Assembly: GCA_019359095.1 (NCBI GenBank)
Contig: JAHHHZ010000013.1
Location: 372,001-436,000 of the forward strand
From: Pleurocapsa minor HA4230-MV1
GTDB taxonomy: Bacteria; Cyanobacteriota; Cyanobacteriia; Cyanobacteriales; Xenococcaceae
Direction: 5' to 3'
DNA length: 64,000 nucleotides
Within the stretch, counting starts at the first letter, position 1. Each line of letters starts with the position of its first letter. The translations under genes and the position numbers were made by a program. Below are positions 1 to 46,529 of this stretch, in pieces. The notes under the pieces are model-generated. The model was not told the origin of the DNA and ran no database searches. It was given only the letters and a program-made list of their open reading frames with translations.

Positions 1-291
1 TGCATTGATGCGGGATTTGTTCCAGGGACAGGCTGGCCAGAACCAGGGGGTCTATTACCTCGTGAGGCGCTACATTTACTCAAAAGAATTGTGCAAAATA
101 CTACAGTATGTGGTATTGAAGTAGTCGAAGTTTCTCCACCCTATGACGTTAGCGATATGACGGCACTTATGGCCACTCGCGTTATCTGCGACACCATGGC
201 ACATTTGGTAGTTTCAGGACAGTTACCCAGAAGCGAAAAACCATCCTACATTCATGAAGAAGCACAGCAAGTAGATGAACCTTGGCAATAG
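1..291 (+). CDS. gdmH: Ureohydrolase C-terminal part, probable Ni-dependent guanidine hydrolase (partial)
   Basis: The reading frame is open from the window edge and gives the last 96 residues of an arginase/agmatinase-family enzyme. The family metal and active-site block is visible at the very start (DAGFVPGTGWPEPGGL), with a second conserved helix-strand segment near VCGIEVVEVSPPYDVSDMT. Ureohydrolases use a dinuclear metal site to hydrolyse guanidino groups and release urea. Known: Synechocystis Sll1077 (GdmH) is a Ni-dependent guanidine hydrolase that needs two accessory proteins for nickel loading. The Trp in GTGWPEPGG, where agmatinases usually have Thr, and the downstream HypA, HypB and ABC importer fit GdmH better than agmatinase. 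That assignment is inference; the diagnostic N-terminal extension lies outside the window. Confidence 0.75.
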   Translation, partial: CIDAGFVPGTGWPEPGGLLPREALHLLKRIVQNTTVCGIEVVEVSPPYDVSDMTALMATRVICDTMAHLVVSGQLPRSEKPSYIHEEAQQVDEPWQ

Positions 292-297
292 CAATGA

Positions 298-321
298 GTC
301 CTAAAGGATTAGCTTCGCGTC
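298..321. repeat. Small interspersed repeat, CCTAAAGGAT core copy
   Basis: This short copy of the window's modular repeat reads GTCCTAAAGGATTAGCTTCG followed by CGTC. It sits between the ureohydrolase stop and the methyltransferase start, flanked by CAATGAG/CAATGAAC heptamer-like words that recur near another copy at 40.6 kb. Confidence 0.7.
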
Positions 322-331
322 ACAATGAACA

Positions 332-1105
332 ATGAGCAATAACAATAAGCAACTGTATCAACTAAATCCTCAAAGTCGATTTAGCGATCGCGCTCAGGAT
401 TATGCTAAATATCGTCCTAGTTATCCATCTGAGGCGATTGATTGCATTTTAGCGGGACTAGACACATCTGGAATAGCTGCTGATATTGGCGCTGGAACGG
501 GTATTTCTTCGAGATTGCTAGCCGATAGGGGAGTTAAAGTAATTGCCATTGAACCTAATGCAGCAATGAAACAAGCAGCCGAGTCACATCCTTTAGTTGA
601 ATTTGGCGATGGGAATGCTGAGGCGACAAAATTATCTGACAACTCAGTAGATTTGGTTACTTGTTTTCAATCTTTTCACTGGTTTAATCCCGAACCAGTG
701 TTACAAGAATTTGCCCGTATTCTCAAGCCAAAAGGAGTATTAGCCGTAGTCTGGAATAATCGCGATCGTGAAGATAATTTTACTCGTGAATACAGTCATT
801 TAATTCAAGTTGCTTCTAACAATCAATCTGAATTGCGTTATGGCACTCAAAGATTTCTTCACGAGCCAGAATTATTTGCTCCTGTTCGTCATGAAATTTT
901 TCCCTATTACCAAGGATTAAATCGTGAAGCTTTAATTGGTAGAGCGATGAGTACTTCTTATATTCCCAAACAAGGAGAAATAGCAACTAAATTTATTCAA
1001 GATTTAGAGCAATTATACGAGCAACACAAAAATAGTAATGGCTTGGTTTATTTAAAATATAACACCAGTATTTATCTAACTTTTTTGTTAGTCAGTACAA
1101 CTTAA
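332..1105 (+). CDS. Class I SAM-dependent methyltransferase
   Basis: This 257-residue protein has a Methyltransf_11-type Rossmann core. Motif I is DIGAGTGISS (about residues 47-56), followed by the acidic strand end IAIEPN (about 71-76) that would bind the SAM ribose, then the post-motif DLVTCFQSFHWF. The N-terminal RFSDRAQDYAKYRPSYP motif is typical of a widespread family of uncharacterised small-molecule methyltransferases. The substrate cannot be read from the sequence. The chosen ATG directly follows a repeat copy. The gene lies between the ureohydrolase and hypA, which are adjacent in Synechocystis, so it looks like an insertion into the conserved operon; a role in guanidine metabolism is not supported by sequence. 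Confidence 0.85.
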   Translation: MSNNNKQLYQLNPQSRFSDRAQDYAKYRPSYPSEAIDCILAGLDTSGIAADIGAGTGISSRLLADRGVKVIAIEPNAAMKQAAESHPLVEFGDGNAEATKLSDNSVDLVTCFQSFHWFNPEPVLQEFARILKPKGVLAVVWNNRDREDNFTREYSHLIQVASNNQSELRYGTQRFLHEPELFAPVRHEIFPYYQGLNREALIGRAMSTSYIPKQGEIATKFIQDLEQLYEQHKNSNGLVYLKYNTSIYLTFLLVSTT

Positions 1106-1151
1106 AATCAACTAAAAATCTTTAAGTACAGACTCGTAAGTATCATCAGCT

Positions 1152-1523
1152 ATGCATGAAACAGACATGACCAAAGCTTTGATTTTGACCGTGAAAGATT
1201 GGTATGAATCACAATCAGAAGCGATCGAGCTGCAAAAAATACATTTAATTGTTGGTCAATTTACCTGTGTCGAACCTCTGGGTTTGCAGTTTGCTTTTGA
1301 AGTTCAAACCCGCAATACTTTTTTAGAAGGAGTAGAACTGGCGATTAAAGATATTCCTTTGATCGCTTTTTGTCATAGCTGCCAACAAGAATATAAACCT
1401 GAAATTGGACTGCAATATAGTTGTCCTGATTGTCAGTCACCAATGGAAGATATTCGCTCTGGACGTGAATTAAAAATCGATCGCCTTGAATATTCTTCTA
1501 TAACTAAAAATTGTAAGGGCTAA
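1152..1523 (+). CDS. hypA: HypA/HybF-type nickel chaperone
   Basis: The 123-residue protein starts with Met-His-Glu, the family's essential nickel-binding N-terminus, which fixes the start codon. Two cysteine pairs (CHSCQQ and CPDCQS, about residues 75-97) form the structural zinc site. HypA proteins hand nickel to HypB partners or target enzymes in the cytoplasm. No hydrogenase or other hyp genes occur here. Known: the orthologous Synechocystis pair beside GdmH serves guanidine hydrolase maturation rather than hydrogenase. Neighbour order (ureohydrolase, hypA, hypB, ABC importer) supports the same role, by inference. Confidence 0.88.
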   Translation: MHETDMTKALILTVKDWYESQSEAIELQKIHLIVGQFTCVEPLGLQFAFEVQTRNTFLEGVELAIKDIPLIAFCHSCQQEYKPEIGLQYSCPDCQSPMEDIRSGRELKIDRLEYSSITKNCKG

Positions 1524-1635
1524 CGGCGACGCGACTTAAGGAGCTAATCTCCAACTAAGCGACTTGTCCTAAAGGATACTGCTCCGCATATGCCGCTTAG
1601 TTCGGTAGACAAGTCCTTTAGGGCGTTCGCCCCTA
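1524..1635. repeat. Modular interspersed repeat cluster between hypA and hypB
   Basis: The hypA-hypB spacer is built almost wholly of repeat modules: GACTTGTCCTAAAGGATACT, GCTCCGCATATGCCGCTTAG, and CGGTAGACAAGTCCTTTAGG, then GGCGTTCGCCC. ACTAAGCG and CGCTTAGT are inverted relative to each other, so a long hairpin could form. Similar pieces occur at 21.9, 36.1, 39.3, 46.4 and 58.0 kb. Confidence 0.75.
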
Positions 1636-1658
1636 CTAATAACTAACAACTGAAAAAA

Positions 1659-2351
1659 ATGCATCAAACATTCGACGCTGCAATTGAACTAAATTTACTC
1701 CACGCTAACCAAGAAGGCGCAGATCACAACCGCGAACATTTTGACAAGTGGGGAATTACCTGTCTTAACATTATGAGTAGTCCAGGAGCAGGAAAAACTG
1801 TTCTTTTGGAACAAACCTTAAAAGCTTTAAAAGATAAGTTAAACATTGCCGTGATTGAAGGCGATATGACCACTGAACTGGATGCCGATCGCCTTCGTAA
1901 ATATAATGTTCCTGTAATTCCCATTAATACGGGACGTTCCTGTCATTTAGATTCCAAAATGGTGGCAGGTGGCATTCATACCTTAGAGCATCAATATAAT
2001 CCGAACGAGCTTGATTTAGTGTTAGTTGAAAACGTGGGTAACTTAGTTTGTCCTGCCGAATTTGAAGTAGGGGAACACGCTAAAGTTGCCTTATTAAGCG
2101 TTACTGAGGGAGAAGATAAGCCTTTAAAATATCCTGTGATGTTTCAGCAGGCAGATTGCCTGTTAATTACCAAAACCGATCTAGCACCCTATTTAGATAT
2201 CGATCTTGAGCGGATTAAAGCCAATGTACGGCAGATGAATCCCCAAGTAATAATTATTCCTATTTCTGCCAAGACAGGTGAAGGATTAGAAATTTGGCTA
2301 GATTGGTTGCGATCGCGGAGCGTAGGCGCGACGCGGAGGACGCGGAGCTAA
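1659..2351 (+). CDS. hypB: HypB-type nickel-inserting GTPase
   Basis: The 230-residue SIMIBI-class GTPase has a P-loop (SSPGAGKT, about residues 40-47), the HypB metal site in [11 protein letters not shown] (Cys95, His96), VENVGN as the DxxG-like switch region, and TKTDL as the base-recognition motif. HypB couples GTP hydrolysis to nickel delivery with HypA. It lacks the N-terminal CxxGCGC motif and the long His-rich stretch of some HypBs. The last 14 or so residues ([14 protein letters not shown]) are encoded by a modular repeat with related copies in intergenic DNA, so the C-terminus has been replaced or extended. By context it probably activates the neighbouring ureohydrolase. Confidence 0.88.
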
Positions 2352-2387
2352 TCCTTTAGGACTAGTCCTTTAGGGGAGCCTAATCGC
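2311..2387. repeat. Modular repeat overlapping the 3' end of hypB
   Basis: The repeat contains GGAGCGTAGGCGCGACGCGG, then GCTAATCCTTTAGGACTAGT, CCTTTAGG, and GGAGCCTAATCGC. The first half lies inside the hypB reading frame and supplies its stop codon. The GCGTAGGC...GGAGCCTAATCGC piece recurs at 23.06 and 35.16 kb; the TCCTTTAGGA piece is the general family core. Confidence 0.75.
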
Positions 2388-2500
2388 AAACACACAAAGC
2401 AAAAGATTTAACTGTTAATTGAGCAAATTAAATTTAGTTTTTAATAGCGATCGCACTGGTAAGCTATTCTCTAACCTAACGTGATTACTTTACTCAATTT

Positions 2501-3550
2501 ATGCTAAAAATTCGTTCATTTTTCACTTATTTGCTTATTTTTGTCCTCAGTGCAACTGTTGTTGTTGGTTGTAATCCAGCTACTTCGATTAAAACAACCA
2601 CTGATACCGATTCTCCTACTTCTACTAGCGAGGCTGCCTTCACTTTGGGCTATAGTGCCTGGCCTGGTTGGTTTCCTTGGCAAGTTGCACAAGCAGAAGG
2701 AATTTTTAAAGCAAACAGTGCTTCGGTCGAGCTTAAATGGTTTGACGGTTATTTAGAATCACTCAGTGCTTTAACCACAGGACAAATTGAGGCGAACAGT
2801 CAAACCTTAAACGATACGATTAGTAGTGTCTCAGGCGGTACAGATCTGGCGATAGTTTTAGTTAATGACAACTCCACTGGTAACGACAAAATAATTGTGA
2901 GTGAAGAAATTAATAGTGTTGCCGATCTAAAAGGGAAAAAAATTGCTGCTGAAGAAGGCACAGTCGACCATTATTTATTATTACTCGGGCTTGAAAAAGA
3001 AGGTTTATCCGCAGCAGATATTGAGTTTGTCCCCTTAGAAACAGGTCAAGCAGCTACAGCCTTTGTTGGTGGTCAAGTTGATGCCGTTGCTGTATTTGCT
3101 CCTTTTACCACTCAAGCCCTAAAACGACCTGGCAGCAAAGAATTATTTAGTTCCAAAGACTTTCCTGGCGCAATTTCCGATCATTTAGTATTTTCTCGTC
3201 AGTTTATTGCAGAAAATCCCGAACAGGTGCAAGCTACAGTCAATTCTTGGTTTGCCACCCTCGATCGTATCGAGCAAAATAAAGCATCAGCTAATAAAAT
3301 CATGGCAAAACGGGCAAATGTAACCATCGCCGAATATGAAGATTATGCCGATGGTACAACCATCTTTTCAGTGCAAGATAATCTTAAAGCTTTTAAACCA
3401 GGGCAAGATGTCACCTCGTTACAATTTTCAGCCCAGAAAATTAGCGATTTTTTAGTCAAATCTGGTTTAGCCCAACAAGCTCCAGATCTGAGTAATCTAT
3501 TTGACGATCGCTTTGTCAAAGCCTATGCAGCCAAACAGCCAAGTTCTTAA
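2501..3550 (+). CDS. ABC importer substrate-binding lipoprotein (NMT1/TauA/SsuA-like)
   Basis: The 349-residue protein has a lipoprotein signal peptide with a hydrophobic core and lipobox ending VVVGC, predicting lipidation at Cys24. The mature part is a type II periplasmic binding fold: GYSAWPGWFPWQVAQAEGIF opens the first lobe, and VADLKGKKIAAEEGTVDHYLL and GQVDAVAVFAPF are typical of the nitrate/sulfonate/taurine family. It would capture a small solute outside the inner membrane for the permease and ATPase that follow. The order matches Synechocystis sll1080-sll1082 next to GdmH, so guanidine or a related cation is the likely ligand, by context only. Confidence 0.85.
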   Translation: MLKIRSFFTYLLIFVLSATVVVGCNPATSIKTTTDTDSPTSTSEAAFTLGYSAWPGWFPWQVAQAEGIFKANSASVELKWFDGYLESLSALTTGQIEANSQTLNDTISSVSGGTDLAIVLVNDNSTGNDKIIVSEEINSVADLKGKKIAAEEGTVDHYLLLLGLEKEGLSAADIEFVPLETGQAATAFVGGQVDAVAVFAPFTTQALKRPGSKELFSSKDFPGAISDHLVFSRQFIAENPEQVQATVNSWFATLDRIEQNKASANKIMAKRANVTIAEYEDYADGTTIFSVQDNLKAFKPGQDVTSLQFSAQKISDFLVKSGLAQQAPDLSNLFDDRFVKAYAAKQPSS

Positions 3551-3565
3551 TTAAACAATTGAACT

Positions 3566-4417
3566 ATGAATCACCATGATAACCAGCGATCGATTCAATC
3601 GTTGATCAAGCCTAAAACTATACGCCCAACGGTTTTTTGGCGACTGGCAGAAGATATTCCTCAACCCCTAAATACTTCTCTAATTATTACTTCAATCGCT
3701 TTGCCGCTAGTTGTCTGGTGGTTGGTAACGACATTCGGCAATATAGACCCCAAGTTTTTACCCTCTCCCGCCCAAGTCTGGTCTGCCTTTATCCGTTTAT
3801 CGAGTACGGGAGAACTGCTTAAAGACACTGTAGCTAGTTTATGGCGAGTCGGCGTGGGCTTTTTTCTAGCATTAATCTTAGCGATTCCGATTGGCGTGCT
3901 GATGGGCAGTTTTGCGAGTATCCGCGCTCTCTTGGAACCTCTCTTCGGCTTGATGCGCTATATGCCTGCTCCAGCTTTTATTCCTCTGTTGATTCTATAT
4001 CTGGGTATCGGTGAAGAACCAAAAATTATGCTGATTTTTATTGGTGTATTTTTCTTTAACTCGCTGATGGTGATGGATACAGTTAAGTTTGTCCCTAAAG
4101 AATTAATTGAAGCTACCTATATGTTGGGTGGCGATCGCTGGTCAGTCTTAAAACAAGTAATTTTGCCTTATGTTCTCCCTGGAATTATCGATGCCTGCCG
4201 AATTAATTTAGCAGCAGCTTGGCAACTGGTAATTGTCTCAGAATTAATTGCTGCCAATGAAGGATTGGGTCGTCGGATTAGCGTTGCTGGCAGATTTTTA
4301 AAAACCGATGAAATTTTTGTCGGCCTAATTGTTATTGGTATTATCGGACTTATTTTCGATTTACTCTTTCAATATTTTTTAAGGGTGAGTTGTCGGTGGG
4401 CAAGTCAGAAACGATAA
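3566..4417 (+). CDS. ABC importer permease (BPD_transp_1, SsuC/TauC-like)
   Basis: The 283-residue inner-membrane protein has about six hydrophobic segments and a BPD_transp_1 domain. The EAA-loop-like region (ATYMLGGDRWSVLKQVILPYVLPGI, around residues 187-211) is the contact site for the ATPase. Only 15 bases separate it from the binding-protein gene, so the two are probably cotranscribed. It should form the translocation channel of the importer. Substrate specificity cannot be deduced from the permease itself. Confidence 0.88.
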   Translation: MNHHDNQRSIQSLIKPKTIRPTVFWRLAEDIPQPLNTSLIITSIALPLVVWWLVTTFGNIDPKFLPSPAQVWSAFIRLSSTGELLKDTVASLWRVGVGFFLALILAIPIGVLMGSFASIRALLEPLFGLMRYMPAPAFIPLLILYLGIGEEPKIMLIFIGVFFFNSLMVMDTVKFVPKELIEATYMLGGDRWSVLKQVILPYVLPGIIDACRINLAAAWQLVIVSELIAANEGLGRRISVAGRFLKTDEIFVGLIVIGIIGLIFDLLFQYFLRVSCRWASQKR

Positions 4418-4596
4418 AAACTTTAGCAAGAGAAAGTAAACATGAAATCGCTTAATAAACTAAACAGTGATTGATGTGAGTTTTGATCTTGTTGAGTAAT
4501 TTCAGTCTAGATCTTAAAAGTGTGTTTAATCGCACAGTACATAGTTGAGTAATTGATAACTATATTAAAAACGTCTATTTAAAGTTATACCTAACT

Positions 4597-5370
4597 ATGT
4601 TTTTGGAAATTAATCACCTCAACAAACATTTTCCAACTAAAAGCGGTACTTTAGTGGTGCTTAAAGAAATCAATATGGCGATCGCCGAAGGTGAATTTAT
4701 CTGTGTGGTAGGTGCATCGGGTTCGGGTAAATCTACGTTGTTGCGTCAAATTGCTGGCTTGGATAGTCCTACCAGTGGCGAAGTAAAAATCGACGGTCAG
4801 TGTGTTACTGCACCAGGGCCTGATCGCGGTATGGTTTTCCAGCATTACACCCTCTATCCTTGGATGAACGTACAGGAAAACACCGAATTCGGACTCAAGT
4901 TACAAGGTGTCCCCCAAAAGCAACGCCGAGAACAAGCCAGTTACTATTTAAACGTCGTTGGTTTAACTGAATTTGCCCGTTTATTACCCAAAGAATTATC
5001 GGGTGGGATGAAACAACGAGTTGCGATCGCTCGTGCTTTAGCTTCTGAACCAAAGGTACTGCTGATGGATGAACCTTTTGCAGCCTTAGATGTTCATACT
5101 AAAGAGTCAATGCATGAGTTTATGATCGATCTGTGGCAGCGTACTGGTTTGACTGTGTTTATGATTACCCATGATGTCGAAGAAGCTGTTTTTCTCTCCA
5201 ATCGCATTTACGCTTTGAGTTCGCGCCCTGGTACTGTGCGCAAAGAGATGTTAATTAAATTGCCAGAACGGACACAAATGGTCAAACGACACTCTCTGTT
5301 CCACGATTATCGCGATGAATTAATGTCTCTGCTACGTCAACACGGACAAGAATTAGCAGCAGTTGCCTAA
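4597..5370 (+). CDS. ABC importer ATP-binding protein (SsuB/TauB-like)
   Basis: The 257-residue ATPase has Walker A GASGSGKST (39-47), Q-loop MVFQHYTLYPW, signature LSGGMKQR (134-141), Walker B VLLMDEP (154-160) and an H-loop in MITHDVEEAV. It belongs to the nitrate/sulfonate/taurine importer subgroup and would energise the preceding permease. The gap to the permease is about 180 bases and AT-rich, longer than the 15-base gap upstream, so a separate promoter is possible. Its stop is followed almost immediately by the convergent GNAT gene; the palindrome AAAATAGCGCTATTTT lies between them. Confidence 0.92.
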   Translation: MFLEINHLNKHFPTKSGTLVVLKEINMAIAEGEFICVVGASGSGKSTLLRQIAGLDSPTSGEVKIDGQCVTAPGPDRGMVFQHYTLYPWMNVQENTEFGLKLQGVPQKQRREQASYYLNVVGLTEFARLLPKELSGGMKQRVAIARALASEPKVLLMDEPFAALDVHTKESMHEFMIDLWQRTGLTVFMITHDVEEAVFLSNRIYALSSRPGTVRKEMLIKLPERTQMVKRHSLFHDYRDELMSLLRQHGQELAAVA

Positions 5371-5393: not shown

Positions 5394-6236
5394 TCAATCA
5401 GCAAAACTATAGTTGCTGATGTCTTCCATCGGGAGATAGCCAATTTTACGATAGATATGATTAGAAGCGGGATTAGCTAAATTAGTGAATAAAAAACAGT
5501 ATTTATATTGATTGAGCAATTTTTGGCTTATTACAGCTACACAAGAAGTTGCATATCCCCTCCCTCTATGCTCTGGTGGCGTATATACTGCATTTACTTT
5601 AATTCCATTAGGTGTTGTGCCTCCATATGCTGCCATCGATACAGTTTTTCGATCCTGCCAAACGTATAAGCTTTGTTTTTTTAAATTTCGGTCAAACCAT
5701 AACTGGCTATCCGACTTCGGTTCACTGTCTCCCAAAGCCTCTATTACAAATGCCTGTATCCAATCTGTTAGCAAATGGCGATCGCTTTCTTTGGCTAACC
5801 TTATTTGACCTGTTGCATTAGTTATCCGTTGCACCTGGTTTAACTGATGCACTCGCATGGCAACATTTAATTTAGATAATTGTCCTGTTAAATTGTGCCA
5901 AGTATCGACAAATGTTTTAGCTTCAGCTTTTGAAGCAATTACTCCAGGCAAAGATTGAGGATTGGTTGCAAGATCTTGGGCAATTAGTTTAATTGCTTGC
6001 GAGTTACTGGGTTTTGCCAAAATTAAATTACGCGGTGGAGTTTGTATCGCTGTAGCTACTATGGATCGATCCTGTTCGACAACAACCATATAAGGTTGAT
6101 TTGCACTATTGGCCTCACCACCAACTAAACCTTTGTTCATACCCAAAATTAAGCAGTTAGCTGCCTCATGCTGAAGCAAATAATTTTTTACTCTCTGATA
6201 GTACTGAGGCGCATCATAAAACTTAGTTAACTTCAT
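5394..6236 (-). CDS. GNAT family N-acetyltransferase
   Basis: The 280-residue protein has a degenerate N-terminal half and a clear C-terminal GNAT domain. The acetyl-CoA binding motif A is NAVYTPPEHRGRGYATSCVA (about residues 215-234), followed by the beta-strand and helix FLFTNLANPASNHIYRKIGY. Two-part proteins of this type transfer acetyl groups to unknown amines. It converges on the ABC ATPase gene with almost no spacer and is not part of that operon. Substrate unknown. Confidence 0.85.
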   Translation of the reverse strand: MKLTKFYDAPQYYQRVKNYLLQHEAANCLILGMNKGLVGGEANSANQPYMVVVEQDRSIVATAIQTPPRNLILAKPSNSQAIKLIAQDLATNPQSLPGVIASKAEAKTFVDTWHNLTGQLSKLNVAMRVHQLNQVQRITNATGQIRLAKESDRHLLTDWIQAFVIEALGDSEPKSDSQLWFDRNLKKQSLYVWQDRKTVSMAAYGGTTPNGIKVNAVYTPPEHRGRGYATSCVAVISQKLLNQYKYCFLFTNLANPASNHIYRKIGYLPMEDISNYSFAD

Positions 6237-7916: not shown

Positions 7917-9869
7917 ATGGTTCAGACTCCAATTGAAAAAAAAGTTGAAAAAAAAGTATCCAAAGTTGAAAAAATAAAAGAGCGCAGTAACTTTCTTCGC
8001 GAACCTCTTTTGAGTGAACTAAAACAAGATACCACCCACTTTACCGAGGATGCGATTCAAATCCTAAAATTCCACGGCTCTTACCAGCAAGATAACCGCG
8101 ATAATCGAGTCAGTGGTCAAGAAAAAGACTATCAAATGATGCTGCGTACTCGTAGCCCAGGGGGATTTATTCCACCAGAATTATTTTTGGCTTTAGATCG
8201 TCTTGCCGAAGAGTATGGCAATCATACCCTGCGAATCACAACTCGTCAGGGGTTTCAGATTCACGGAATTCTGAAGCAAAACATGAAAACGGTAATTAAG
8301 ACGATTCTCAACAACATGGGTTCAACCCTGAGTGCTTGTGGAGATGTTAACCGCAACATCATGTCTCCTCCTGCGCCGTTTAAGAATAAGCCTGAATACC
8401 AATATGCTTTTAAATACGCCAATAATATTGCCGATCTATTAAATCCTCAAAGTGGCGCTTATTACGAGATCTGGCTAGATGGGGAAAAAGCGGTTAGTGT
8501 CGAGGAAGCTCCTGAAGTAAAGGCTGCTAGACAAAGTAAAGGCAGAGGGATGATTATTGAAAACAGCCTCGAACCAATCTATGGCGAGCAATTTTTACCC
8601 CGTAAGTTCAAAATCTGCGTTACTGTACCTGGGGACAACTCTGTTGATGTCTACACCCACGATATTAGTCTGGTGGTAATGAGTAATAAAAAAGGTGAGT
8701 TACAGGGATTTAATGTGCTTGCTGGGGGTGGTTTAGGACGTACTCATAATAAAGAAGAAACCTTTGCACGGATTTCTGATGAAATTGGCTATGTAGATAA
8801 GGCTGATGTTTACGATTTAGTTAAAGCAATTGTTGCTACTCAACGAGATTATGGCGATCGCACTAACCGCCGTCATTCGCGCATGAAATACTTGATTCAC
8901 GATTGGGGAGTTGAGAAATTCAAAGCCAAAGTCGAGTCCTATTTCGGCAAAGAACTAAAGCCTTATAAAAAGCTCCCAGCCTGGCAATATCAAGACTTTT
9001 TAGGTTGGTATGAGCAAGGAGATGGTAACTGGTTCTTCGGCATCGGGGTGGAAAACGGCCGAGTTAAAGATGAGGGTGCTTTTCAATTAAAAACTGCTCT
9101 AAGAGAGATTGTGCAGCAGTTAAACCTACCCATGCGCTTATCTCCCAACCACAATATCATCCTCTGTGAAATTGCTCCAGAGCAGAAAGCAACCGTCGAG
9201 AATATTCTCAATAATCGGGGCATAATTACCGATCCCCAGGCGATCGAACCCTTAACTCGCTATTCTATGGCTTGTCCTGCCTTACCTACCTGTGGACTAG
9301 CGGTTACGGAATCGGAAAGAGCTTTACCAGGAATTACCGATCGAATCAGGACATTATTGAATAAACTAGGAATGGTAGACGAACACTTCGTGATGCGGAT
9401 GACTGGGTGTCCCAACGGCTGCGCTCGTCCCTACATGGCAGAACTAGGTTTTGTCGGCAGCGCACCAGAGAAATACCAAATCTGGCTGGGAGGCACACCC
9501 AACCAAACTCAGCTAGCCCAACCTTATGAGCAGAAAATGTCCGTAGATGAGCTAGAAACCTTCTTTGAGCCTATATTTGTCTTCTTCAAGCAGGGTCGCA
9601 AATCTAAGGAAAGCTTTGGTTCATTCTGTAGTCGCGTCGGATTCGCTGCCATTCGTAATTTTGCTGAAAACTACACCCTAGGAAGCTATATGGATATGGA
9701 TACAGATACTACCACTCAACCCAAATTTCGCAAAAATCAGCGTCGTGTTAGCGTTCCCGATCACCTTTTTCCTCGCTTGAAAGAAATTGCTGAAAAGGAA
9801 GGTCGACCTATGAATCAAATTATTGCTGATGCTTTAAGCGATTACTTTAGCAAAAGTAAAGAAGCATAA
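7917..9869 (+). CDS. sir: Ferredoxin-sulfite reductase with C-terminal ribbon-helix-helix-like tail
   Basis: The 650-residue enzyme reduces sulfite to sulfide with six electrons from ferredoxin in assimilatory sulfur metabolism. Two nitrite/sulfite reductase half-repeats are present. The cysteines that hold the [4Fe-4S]-siroheme centre are Cys453 and Cys459 (ACPALPTCG) and Cys498 and Cys502 ([10 protein letters not shown]). The N-terminus is Lys-rich. After the catalytic domain comes a basic linker and a segment [20 protein letters not shown] plus [16 protein letters not shown] (about residues 605-643), which resembles a CopG/Arc ribbon-helix-helix DNA-binding unit. Sulfite rather than nitrite specificity is inferred from overall resemblance. 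A terminator hairpin follows. Confidence 0.9.
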
Positions 9870-9903
9870 TTAAGATCACTGTCTTAAATCAAATAACTTG
9901 CTG

Positions 9904-9925
9904 GGCTGCTACTTAGCAGCCTTTT
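9904..9925 (+). terminator. Rho-independent terminator after sir
   Basis: GGCTGCT, loop ACTT, AGCAGCC, then TTTT: a perfect 7-bp stem with a T run, 34 bases after the sir stop. Confidence 0.75.
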
Positions 9926-9993
9926 ATTCTATCTAGAGCATTTCTTAGTTCACTAAGAAACATTTTTTACTCCCTTCTGTTTCTTCACTTAAA

Positions 9994-10584
9994 TTAAAAA
10001 GTCTCTTTGGTTAAGACAAAAACGTTACCTTCATTGCCTCGACTAATGCGCATATCCCGATCTAAATAGGTAATTTCCAACCAGCCTTGTTGTTCACCGC
10101 GCTCAATTTTAAAGTCGATGGGCAAAAATTTCTTACCCGACTCGATCTGTTGAATCAGTTTGGCAGGAGTTTTATAGCTAAACAACCTTTGTAAACCAAT
10201 AATCGAGCGTTCAAAAATAACATTAACTCGGCGATCTGAAACTGGGTCAAAACTAGCAGCGACGCTAACCAAACCTTCTAACATCGGTAAGCCGATAATC
10301 TCAGCAATATTATATACCTTGGCTTCTGATACTCGAATGCATTGATAGATTTGACCTAGCTTAAACAGGGGAAAGCGATCTAAACCAAGAATCCCCTTGC
10401 TGGTGGTATAGAGCAAACGCCAGTCACCATTGAGTAAATCCTTAGCCTCTAAAGGCTTCTGTGTCGGATTAGTATCTTCTAGCTGTTGAATTGCCGAGAG
10501 AACTCTGGCATTATCAATTTCGGTTGCCAGCAAACCACGATTTTTACCCGCGATCGCCTCTAATAATTCTGCTTTTTTACTCAT
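9994..10584 (-). CDS. PAP/fibrillin family protein
   Basis: The 196-residue protein matches the plastid-lipid-associated/fibrillin family, a lipocalin-like fold found in thylakoid or plastoglobule-associated proteins. Diagnostic pieces are LLNGDWRLLYTTSKGILGLDR in the middle and the C-terminal WLEITYLDRDMRISRGNEGN with VFVLTK. Members are linked to photoprotection and storage of prenyl lipids, but this protein's ligand is unknown. It is followed by nothing on its strand and lies tail-to-tail with sir. Confidence 0.88.
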   Translation of the reverse strand: MSKKAELLEAIAGKNRGLLATEIDNARVLSAIQQLEDTNPTQKPLEAKDLLNGDWRLLYTTSKGILGLDRFPLFKLGQIYQCIRVSEAKVYNIAEIIGLPMLEGLVSVAASFDPVSDRRVNVIFERSIIGLQRLFSYKTPAKLIQQIESGKKFLPIDFKIERGEQQGWLEITYLDRDMRISRGNEGNVFVLTKETF

Positions 10585-21922: not shown

Positions 21923-22001
21923 TGTCCTAAAGGATTCCTAAAGGATTAGCTCCTTCGTCCTAAAGGATACCGCTCCGCATATCGCGTCACCGCTCCGCAT
22001 A
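21923..22001. repeat. Modular interspersed repeat cluster
   Basis: Three CCTAAAGGAT cores are stacked (TTTGTCCTAAAGGATTCCTA, AAGGATTAGCTCCTTCGTCC, TAAAGGATACCGCTCCGCAT) followed by a second CACCGCTCCGCATATTA. The ACCGCTCCGCATAT module is duplicated. Confidence 0.75.
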
Positions 22002-35868: not shown

Positions 35869-36206
35869 TTAACTATCTGCTGTTCCTAGAAACATGGCAA
35901 ATAACTCTTCTCCTGTCATATTTTTGGTTTGATTGGCAAAAGAATAATATTCGGGCTTTTCTTCAATAAAAACCTGAAGATCGAAAATAAGATCTTCATC
36001 ATCATCAAAAATTCCCACTGGTATGTAGTAATGATTGTTTTCTTTCAATTTATAAAATAGGTGGCTACCATATGCGAAGCGGTATGCTAAAGCATTTGCG
36101 GAGCTTATCCTTTAGGACTAGCTGCGCGTCGTCCTTTAGGACACTTGTTACAGAATCCACGTTCCGCCCATTCTGAAGATTGATATATCGTACTTTGAGT
36201 CAAATT
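35869..36206 (-). pseudogene. GFA-family gene remnant interrupted by a repeat
   Basis: Two reverse-strand pieces join perfectly when a 71-base repeat is removed. The upstream piece reads ...YQSSEWAERGFCNKC, the downstream piece GSHLFYKLKENNHYYIPVG ... to FAMFLGTADS. Together they recreate the GFA (glutathione-dependent formaldehyde-activating, CENP-V type) zinc motif CNKCGSHLF and the C-terminal half of the family. The insertion shifts the frame and brings an in-frame stop. The N-terminal half, with the first CxCG motif, is not found upstream, where a TAA closes the frame. The gene is therefore dead or badly truncated. Confidence 0.8.
36070..36140. repeat. 71-nt repeat inserted into the GFA gene
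   Basis: ATATGCGAAGCGGTATGCTA, then AAGCATTTGCGGAGCTTATC, then CTTTAGGACTAGCTGCGCGT, CGTCCTTTAGG. Both ends are defined because the GFA reading frame resumes exactly at each side. No clear target-site duplication is seen. Confidence 0.8.
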
Positions 36207-40625: not shown

Positions 40626-40680
40626 GTCCTAAAGGATTAGTCCTAAAGGATTAGCTCGCAAGCTCGCGTCCTTCGCGTCA
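40626..40680. repeat. Modular interspersed repeat
   Basis: GTCCTAAAGGATTAGTCCTA then AAGGATTAGCTCGCAAGCTC and GCGTCCTTCGCGTCA: a doubled CCTAAAGGATTAG core followed by the CTCGCAAGCTCGCG palindrome. Confidence 0.75.
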
Positions 40681-40796
40681 CAATGAGCAATGAGCAACGC
40701 TCAGTTACCTCTTTTTCAAAAAATGAGGATTGTTATTATTAAGGAAAGAATTTCTGTTTATTTCTTTGTGAACGAAGAGGTTTTAAACCTGATTAA

Positions 40797-40848
40797 TCCT
40801 AAAGGATATCCTAAAGGACTAGCTCCTTACGTCGCGTCGCACTTCGTT
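40797..40848. repeat. Modular interspersed repeat
   Basis: TCCTAAAGGATATCCTAAAG then GACTAGCTCCTTACGTCGCG TCGCACTTCG. The core is again doubled. Confidence 0.7.
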
Positions 40849-46340: not shown

Positions 46341-46529
46341 TTGTCCTAAAGGATAAGCTTCACAAATGGTATACCGCTTCGCGACGCGAAGGACGGACGC
46401 GCCAGCTAATCCTTTAGGACGAGCTTACGAGCTAATGGTAAACCACTTGTCTCGCATAGTTGGAGATACCGCTTCGCGACGCGAAGCTAGTGCTAAAGCA
46501 TACCGCTACGCATATCCTTTAGGGCATAT
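46341..46529. repeat. Composite array of modular repeats
   Basis: The largest repeat cluster in the window. It contains three CCTAAAGGAT/ATCCTTTAGG cores, one ACCGCTACGCATAT module, TGCTAAAGCATACCGC, and two copies of the perfect 15-base palindrome CTTCGCGACGCGAAG about 95 bases apart, each preceded by ATACCG. It fills the sfsA/M48 spacer. Confidence 0.8.

Follow-up and report, generated by a model that had tools for sequence, protein, structure and literature searches.

The window is a stretch of 64,000 nucleotides of Pleurocapsa minor HA4230-MV1 (genome G000, contig C13:372001–436000). The source genome comprises 5.64 Mb in 36 contigs and is rated 100% complete. At its 5′ edge the window carries, on the + strand, genes for a guanidine hydrolase (GdmH), its putative nickel chaperones and a candidate guanidine importer of the ATP-binding cassette (ABC) type. 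The 3′ end of gdmH occupies positions 1–291, begins at Cys302 and contains the Trp313 codon at 34–36. Most of the gene lies outside the window; the full gene (397 amino acids) is at C13:371098–372291, equal to 9098–10291 of the extended locus L003, in which each position is the window position plus 10000. A class I S-adenosylmethionine-dependent methyltransferase (Methyltransf_11, 257 amino acids) is encoded at 332–1105 (+), between gdmH and hypA. The HypA paralogue, ghaA, is at 1152–1523 (+), with an MHE N-terminus and two CxxC motifs, and belongs to a guanidinase-linked clade. The HypB-type GTPase, ghaB, is at 1659–2351 (+), with a P-loop and with Cys95-His96 and Cys131, which we take to be the metal site. 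The importer consists of an Sll1080-like, lipoprotein-like substrate-binding protein (SBP) of the NMT1/SsuA family (2501–3550, +), an Sll1081-like permease (3566–4417, +) and an Sll1082-like ATPase (4597–5370, +). The ATPase gene is the final one of the cluster; the gene 3′ of it (5394–6236) is on the − strand. A preliminary description of this DNA had listed a ureohydrolase 3′ end with GTGWPEPGG, a HypA with an MHE start, a HypB, a lipoprotein, a permease and an ATPase on one strand, and all of these are confirmed. It had also compared their order to sll1077–sll1082 of Synechocystis; the order is otherwise the same, but the methyltransferase, which it did not mention, splits the ureohydrolase from HypA.

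Judged by its sequence, the enzyme is a member of the GdmH guanidine hydrolases. The full-length protein matches the Synechocystis GdmH structures 7esr/7oi1 with 820 bits (E 4.9e-246, residues 1–397) and the guanidinase of Nitrospira inopinata, 9fek, with 585 bits; the next ureohydrolases, which are not guanidinases, reach at most 171 bits. Guanidine specificity is assigned to T97 and W305 in Sll1077 and to T105 and W313 in N. inopinata (PMC11410670). By alignment both residues are present here, as T105 and W313. The same Thr and Trp are found in 80/80 named homologues (the closest 80 of 369 found), of which the closest belong to Hyellaceae, Xenococcaceae and Myxosarcina, suggesting a cyanobacterium of the Pleurocapsales lineage. 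Since W313 aligns with W305/W313, the Trp of GTGWPEPGG, earlier proposed as a candidate for narrowing the pocket, is the known pocket residue. Alignment with 7esr extends through the N-terminus. The arginase domain match begins at residue 92, not at residue 19 as in the agmatinase of the same genome (contig C19), so the N-terminal region common to GdmH is present in the full enzyme. The GdmH assignment, first made on the 3′ end, thus holds on the whole protein. A genome of the same genus, G001, has two gdmH copies (C267, locus L091, and C21), 86% and 81% identical to the enzyme described here; a separate guanidine-I riboswitch match accompanies each of them.

HypA and HypB pass hydrogenase-maturation models. 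In the whole 5.64-Mb genome neither HypD nor a NiFe hydrogenase large subunit was found at E ≤ 0.001 (HypC, HypE and HypF were not searched), and none is present just outside the window, in agreement with the earlier remark that no hydrogenase is present. Urease is encoded, with a separate UreG on contig C28. A HypA model search of 60 genomes found a single HypA in this genome, that of the window. A close gdmH occurs in 43 of the 60 and HypD in 29; the number of HypA equals gdmH plus HypD in 53/60, whereas 45 was the maximum when the gdmH label was shuffled 10,000 times without regard to relatedness. For this count two overlapping fragments of G036 were taken as one, and matches below the cut-off, two in G038 and one in G049, were left out. 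Of 77 places with a HypA, 60 were chosen for the tree; two of them, L147 and L163, dropped out for lack of a match, leaving 58. With a bootstrap not fully settled, a 100/98 branch divides 35 gdmH-linked copies and that of G023 from 22 others, which all lie away from gdmH (21 from HypD genomes, one from G026). Identity to the HypA of the window is 68–89% for gdmH-linked copies and 28–37% for the 21 from HypD genomes. The clade, the copy number and the absence of HypD and NiFe hydrogenase argue for the pair being GhaA/GhaB, names used in PMC10094980. Dedication to the guanidinase, claimed at the outset for both proteins, is thereby supported for HypA; HypB is a putative GhaB by its adjacency to gdmH. 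As the genome has a sole HypA and neither HypD nor NiFe hydrogenase, it offers a natural test of whether HypA/HypB paralogues serve the guanidinase alone.

It is highly improbable that the enzyme is an agmatinase which nickel proteins of generic hydrogenase or urease type adjoin by chance. The enzyme does pass the NCBIfam agmatinase model, narrowly (179.5 vs a cut-off of 174.3), as HypA and HypB pass their hydrogenase-maturation models. A better agmatinase, with 288 bits to the same model, is however encoded elsewhere in the genome (locus L004), and the 820-bit match to GdmH includes both specificity residues. Agmatinase identity was rejected on these grounds. Service of HypA/HypB to a hydrogenase or to urease was likewise rejected: HypD and NiFe hydrogenase are lacking, urease has its own UreG, and HypA falls in the guanidinase-linked clade. 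The narrow pass explains how genes of this kind come to be misnamed; automatic annotation as agmatinase and hydrogenase maturation proteins misleads. Two other genomes may be mentioned here. G042, 98% complete, has a close gdmH and no HypA match, and recalls the chaperone-free comammox guanidinase. G023 has a weak guanidine-I match (45.6 bits) ahead of its lone HypA (G023:C83:18661–19409) and another (49 bits) on a second contig together with its gdmH; the operon may have been split.

A leader of 220 bp lies between an NYN-domain gene and gdmH. A guanidine riboswitch, which the preliminary description had suggested looking for there, was found neither at the locus nor elsewhere: guanidine-I (RF00442) is absent from the genome in a whole-genome search at E ≤ 10, and cmscan of L003 gives no Rfam family up to E = 1, the sole match being a snoRNA model on L004 (E 0.49). 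That a riboswitch is present and was overlooked was rejected, the genome search and the laxer cmscan of the locus both being negative. RF00442 is found in 40/60 genomes at E ≤ 0.1, in 37 of these over the cut-off, and over the cut-off in 12/12 other genomes of the same genus searched. In 65 of the 80 named loci a regular expression that allows one mismatch per core finds the aptamer core no further than 500 bp away (matches not each confirmed by Rfam); Rfam adds another 2. The other 13 are without an aptamer at the Rfam gathering threshold, which may miss weak copies; two of them have leaders of 367 and 395 bp. Within the family, G016 and G022 also have no riboswitch. Its absence is not unique to this genome.

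Directly upstream of gdmH is a relic of 79 bp, 81% identical to the leader of the same-genus genome G005 and corresponding to the terminator arm 3′ of the aptamer. The terminator hairpin has −11.1 kcal/mol here vs −25.8 to −31.8 kcal/mol in five relatives; within this decayed terminator the inner hairpin is conserved. The promoter and aptamer part of the G005 leader has no match in this genome other than one of 26 bp on contig C20. Upstream of the operon, G005 and G002, the latter also of the same genus, have an alpha/beta hydrolase-like gene (named by eye); here it is on contig C8, with another gene closely after it. Because the hydrolase-like gene is elsewhere and the leader is partly without match, we infer a rearrangement whose breakpoint lies within the leader; such a rearrangement, or a deletion, would have taken out promoter and aptamer. 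An assembly artefact is unlikely, since the relic is decayed across its 79 bp and not cleanly cut. Retention of guanidine control by another sensor, be it an unlisted riboswitch or a protein regulator, is unlikely: 220 bp of leader with the conserved inner hairpin are left for it, but no Rfam family is matched on L003 up to the E given above (of leader folds, only the terminator was examined). Riboswitch loss in gdm operons is not mentioned in the titles and abstract openings surveyed; an earlier report is possible.

Upstream regions were also searched, by exact matches only, for GTAN8TAC followed 20–24 nt (about 22) later by TAN3T, which we take to be an NtcA-type promoter. The pattern occurs in the leaders of 23/80 named loci vs 0.46 expected from shuffles, and the GTAN8TAC box alone in 41/80 vs 3.66 expected. 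It is found in 13/20 fetched relatives (L091–L110), G005 and G002 included. The exact pattern is not found in the 450 bp upstream of the operon in this genome. Repression of the Synechocystis guanidine operon by ammonium (PMC10094980) fits an NtcA-type motif. Of the points raised here, NtcA control is the one that may most readily have been described before.

All six guanidine genes are open and of full length. The ratio of nonsynonymous to synonymous substitution (dN/dS) against G005 is 0.028 for gdmH, 0.13 for hypA, 0.09 for hypB, 0.16 for the SBP and 0.07 for the permease (ATPase not computed); these values average the time before and after riboswitch loss. gdmH remains under purifying selection. 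Silence and decay of the operon since the loss of promoter and switch is quite unlikely. The aptamer and the exact NtcA-type pattern are absent with no clear new promoter, the GST-like gene of several relatives is missing, and repeats stand in the gaps; yet the six genes are full-length with the low dN/dS given, and the terminator has decayed instead of persisting as a block.

The locus is read, with a probability of roughly 0.87, as a GdmH-type guanidine assimilation operon that has lost the promoter and aptamer of its leader and whose expression is most likely not gated by guanidine. The importer would take up guanidinium. GdmH would cleave it at a nickel site to urea and ammonium, GhaA and GhaB, with no hydrogenase to serve in the genome, would load the nickel into GdmH, and the separate urease of the cell would complete the breakdown. 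These steps follow PMC12186494, PMC8390497 and PMC10094980. Nickel use is inferred for this enzyme. Guanidine is a plausible substrate of the importer, from operon position and from the literature, where it is called a guanidine importer (PMC12186494, PMC10094980). A guanidine-I aptamer with a terminator precedes the operon in close relatives, as does an NtcA-type promoter in the 13 fetched relatives with the pattern. In this genome a breakpoint in the leader would have removed promoter and aptamer, the decayed terminator arm staying behind, and the operon would be transcribed from another promoter. With the sensor step missing, guanidine gating is probably gone and expression is probably constitutive.

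Several observations weigh against this reading, beside the agmatinase model pass and the averaging of dN/dS over both periods. The solved-structure matches of the SBP are only of sulfonate, nitrate or taurine type or unnamed. The HypA count rule is broken by 7/60 genomes (G004, G008, G022, G026, G042, G043, G049). Sigma-70-like matches are at chance level (3 vs 2.5), and no promoter was identified. If the operon has lost its sensor as proposed, it is a natural test of the consequences of such a loss, and a guanidine-blind operon beside sisters with an intact switch would permit direct comparison of expression cost and guanidine exposure.

Synechocystis sp. PCC 6803 reportedly has a gdmH-ghaA-ghaB-sll1080/1081/1082 operon, as described by Funck and co-workers in 2022; it is also treated by Wang and co-workers in 2021 (PMC8390497) and in PMC10094980. 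The present operon resembles it in the enzyme, in the kind of chaperone pair and of importer, and in the gene order save one insertion. It differs in the methyltransferase between gdmH and ghaA and in a leader without the guanidine-I riboswitch, which Synechocystis has (PMC8390497). The system itself is known (PMC10094980, PMC12186494, PMC8390497); the modest novelty is a sensor-less variant with a methyltransferase. The guanidinase of N. inopinata (9fek) belongs to the same ureohydrolase clade, with T105 and W313; its gene is accompanied by an APC permease and a riboswitch, with no nickel chaperones or ABC importer nearby, the reverse of the present locus (PMC11410670). The same-genus loci of G005 (L095) and G002 (L092) have gdmH 96% and 95% identical to that described here and a methyltransferase in the same place; unlike the present locus, they retain the riboswitch, the NtcA-type promoter and a GST-like gene before hypA. 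The metformin hydrolase MetCa/MetCb (8ryi, 8snf), described as Ni-dependent (PMC11399263, PMC11271267), is of the same ureohydrolase superfamily; unlike the present enzyme it is heteromeric, and it matches with 130–141 bits only.

The methyltransferase is present in the gdmH–hypA gap of 10/19 fetched relatives (shorter in L108), as a broken remnant in one, and not in eight; the twentieth, L091, stops before the gap. Among the 80 named loci, 7 and a remnant have it, all probably the same loci as in the genome set. Its place between gdmH and hypA was seen in this family only; outside the family, the best matches among those listed lie away from gdmH. In the methyltransferase tree 11 operon copies and 2 others stand on a 98/98 branch, with 3 label changes, compatible with one insertion in the family. 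The protein is 89% identical to that of G005 (dS 0.16, dN/dS 0.37) and 62% to that of G002, whereas gdmH of G005 and G002 agree in 96.1% of bases and either agrees with this genome in 87%. This greater nearness to G005 than to G002, against the kinship of gdmH, suggests that methyltransferase alleles have been exchanged between lineages. The best solved-structure match is 3ege (5.4e-14); it indicates no substrate. A putative fatty acid methyltransferase of N. inopinata increased on guanidine, at a significance that was marginal (PMC11410670). No methyltransferase in gdm operons is mentioned in the titles and abstract openings surveyed; an earlier report is possible.

The GST-like gene (named by eye) is ahead of hypA in 9/19 relatives (L092, L094, L095, L101, L102, L104, L105, L106, L110), with fragments in 2 more, and is a recurrent neighbour of guanidinase operons in the family. 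It is not at the present locus, and elsewhere in this genome only matches of at most 36% identity are found. It is rather improbable that the methyltransferase and, in the relatives, the GST-like gene beside it contribute to the pathway, the methyltransferase acting for instance on guanidine or another guanidino compound. If they did, the lineage would have an extended guanidine metabolism, with sensing unneeded as the substrate is constantly made or met.

A palindromic repeat, TCCTAAAGGA/TCCTTTAGGA, has 27 strand-wise matches in the window vs 0.30 expected. Three copies are in operon gaps (298–309, 1566–1577, 2351–2362). Further copies are at 21924–21968, 36107–36142, 40626–40819 and 46343–46420.

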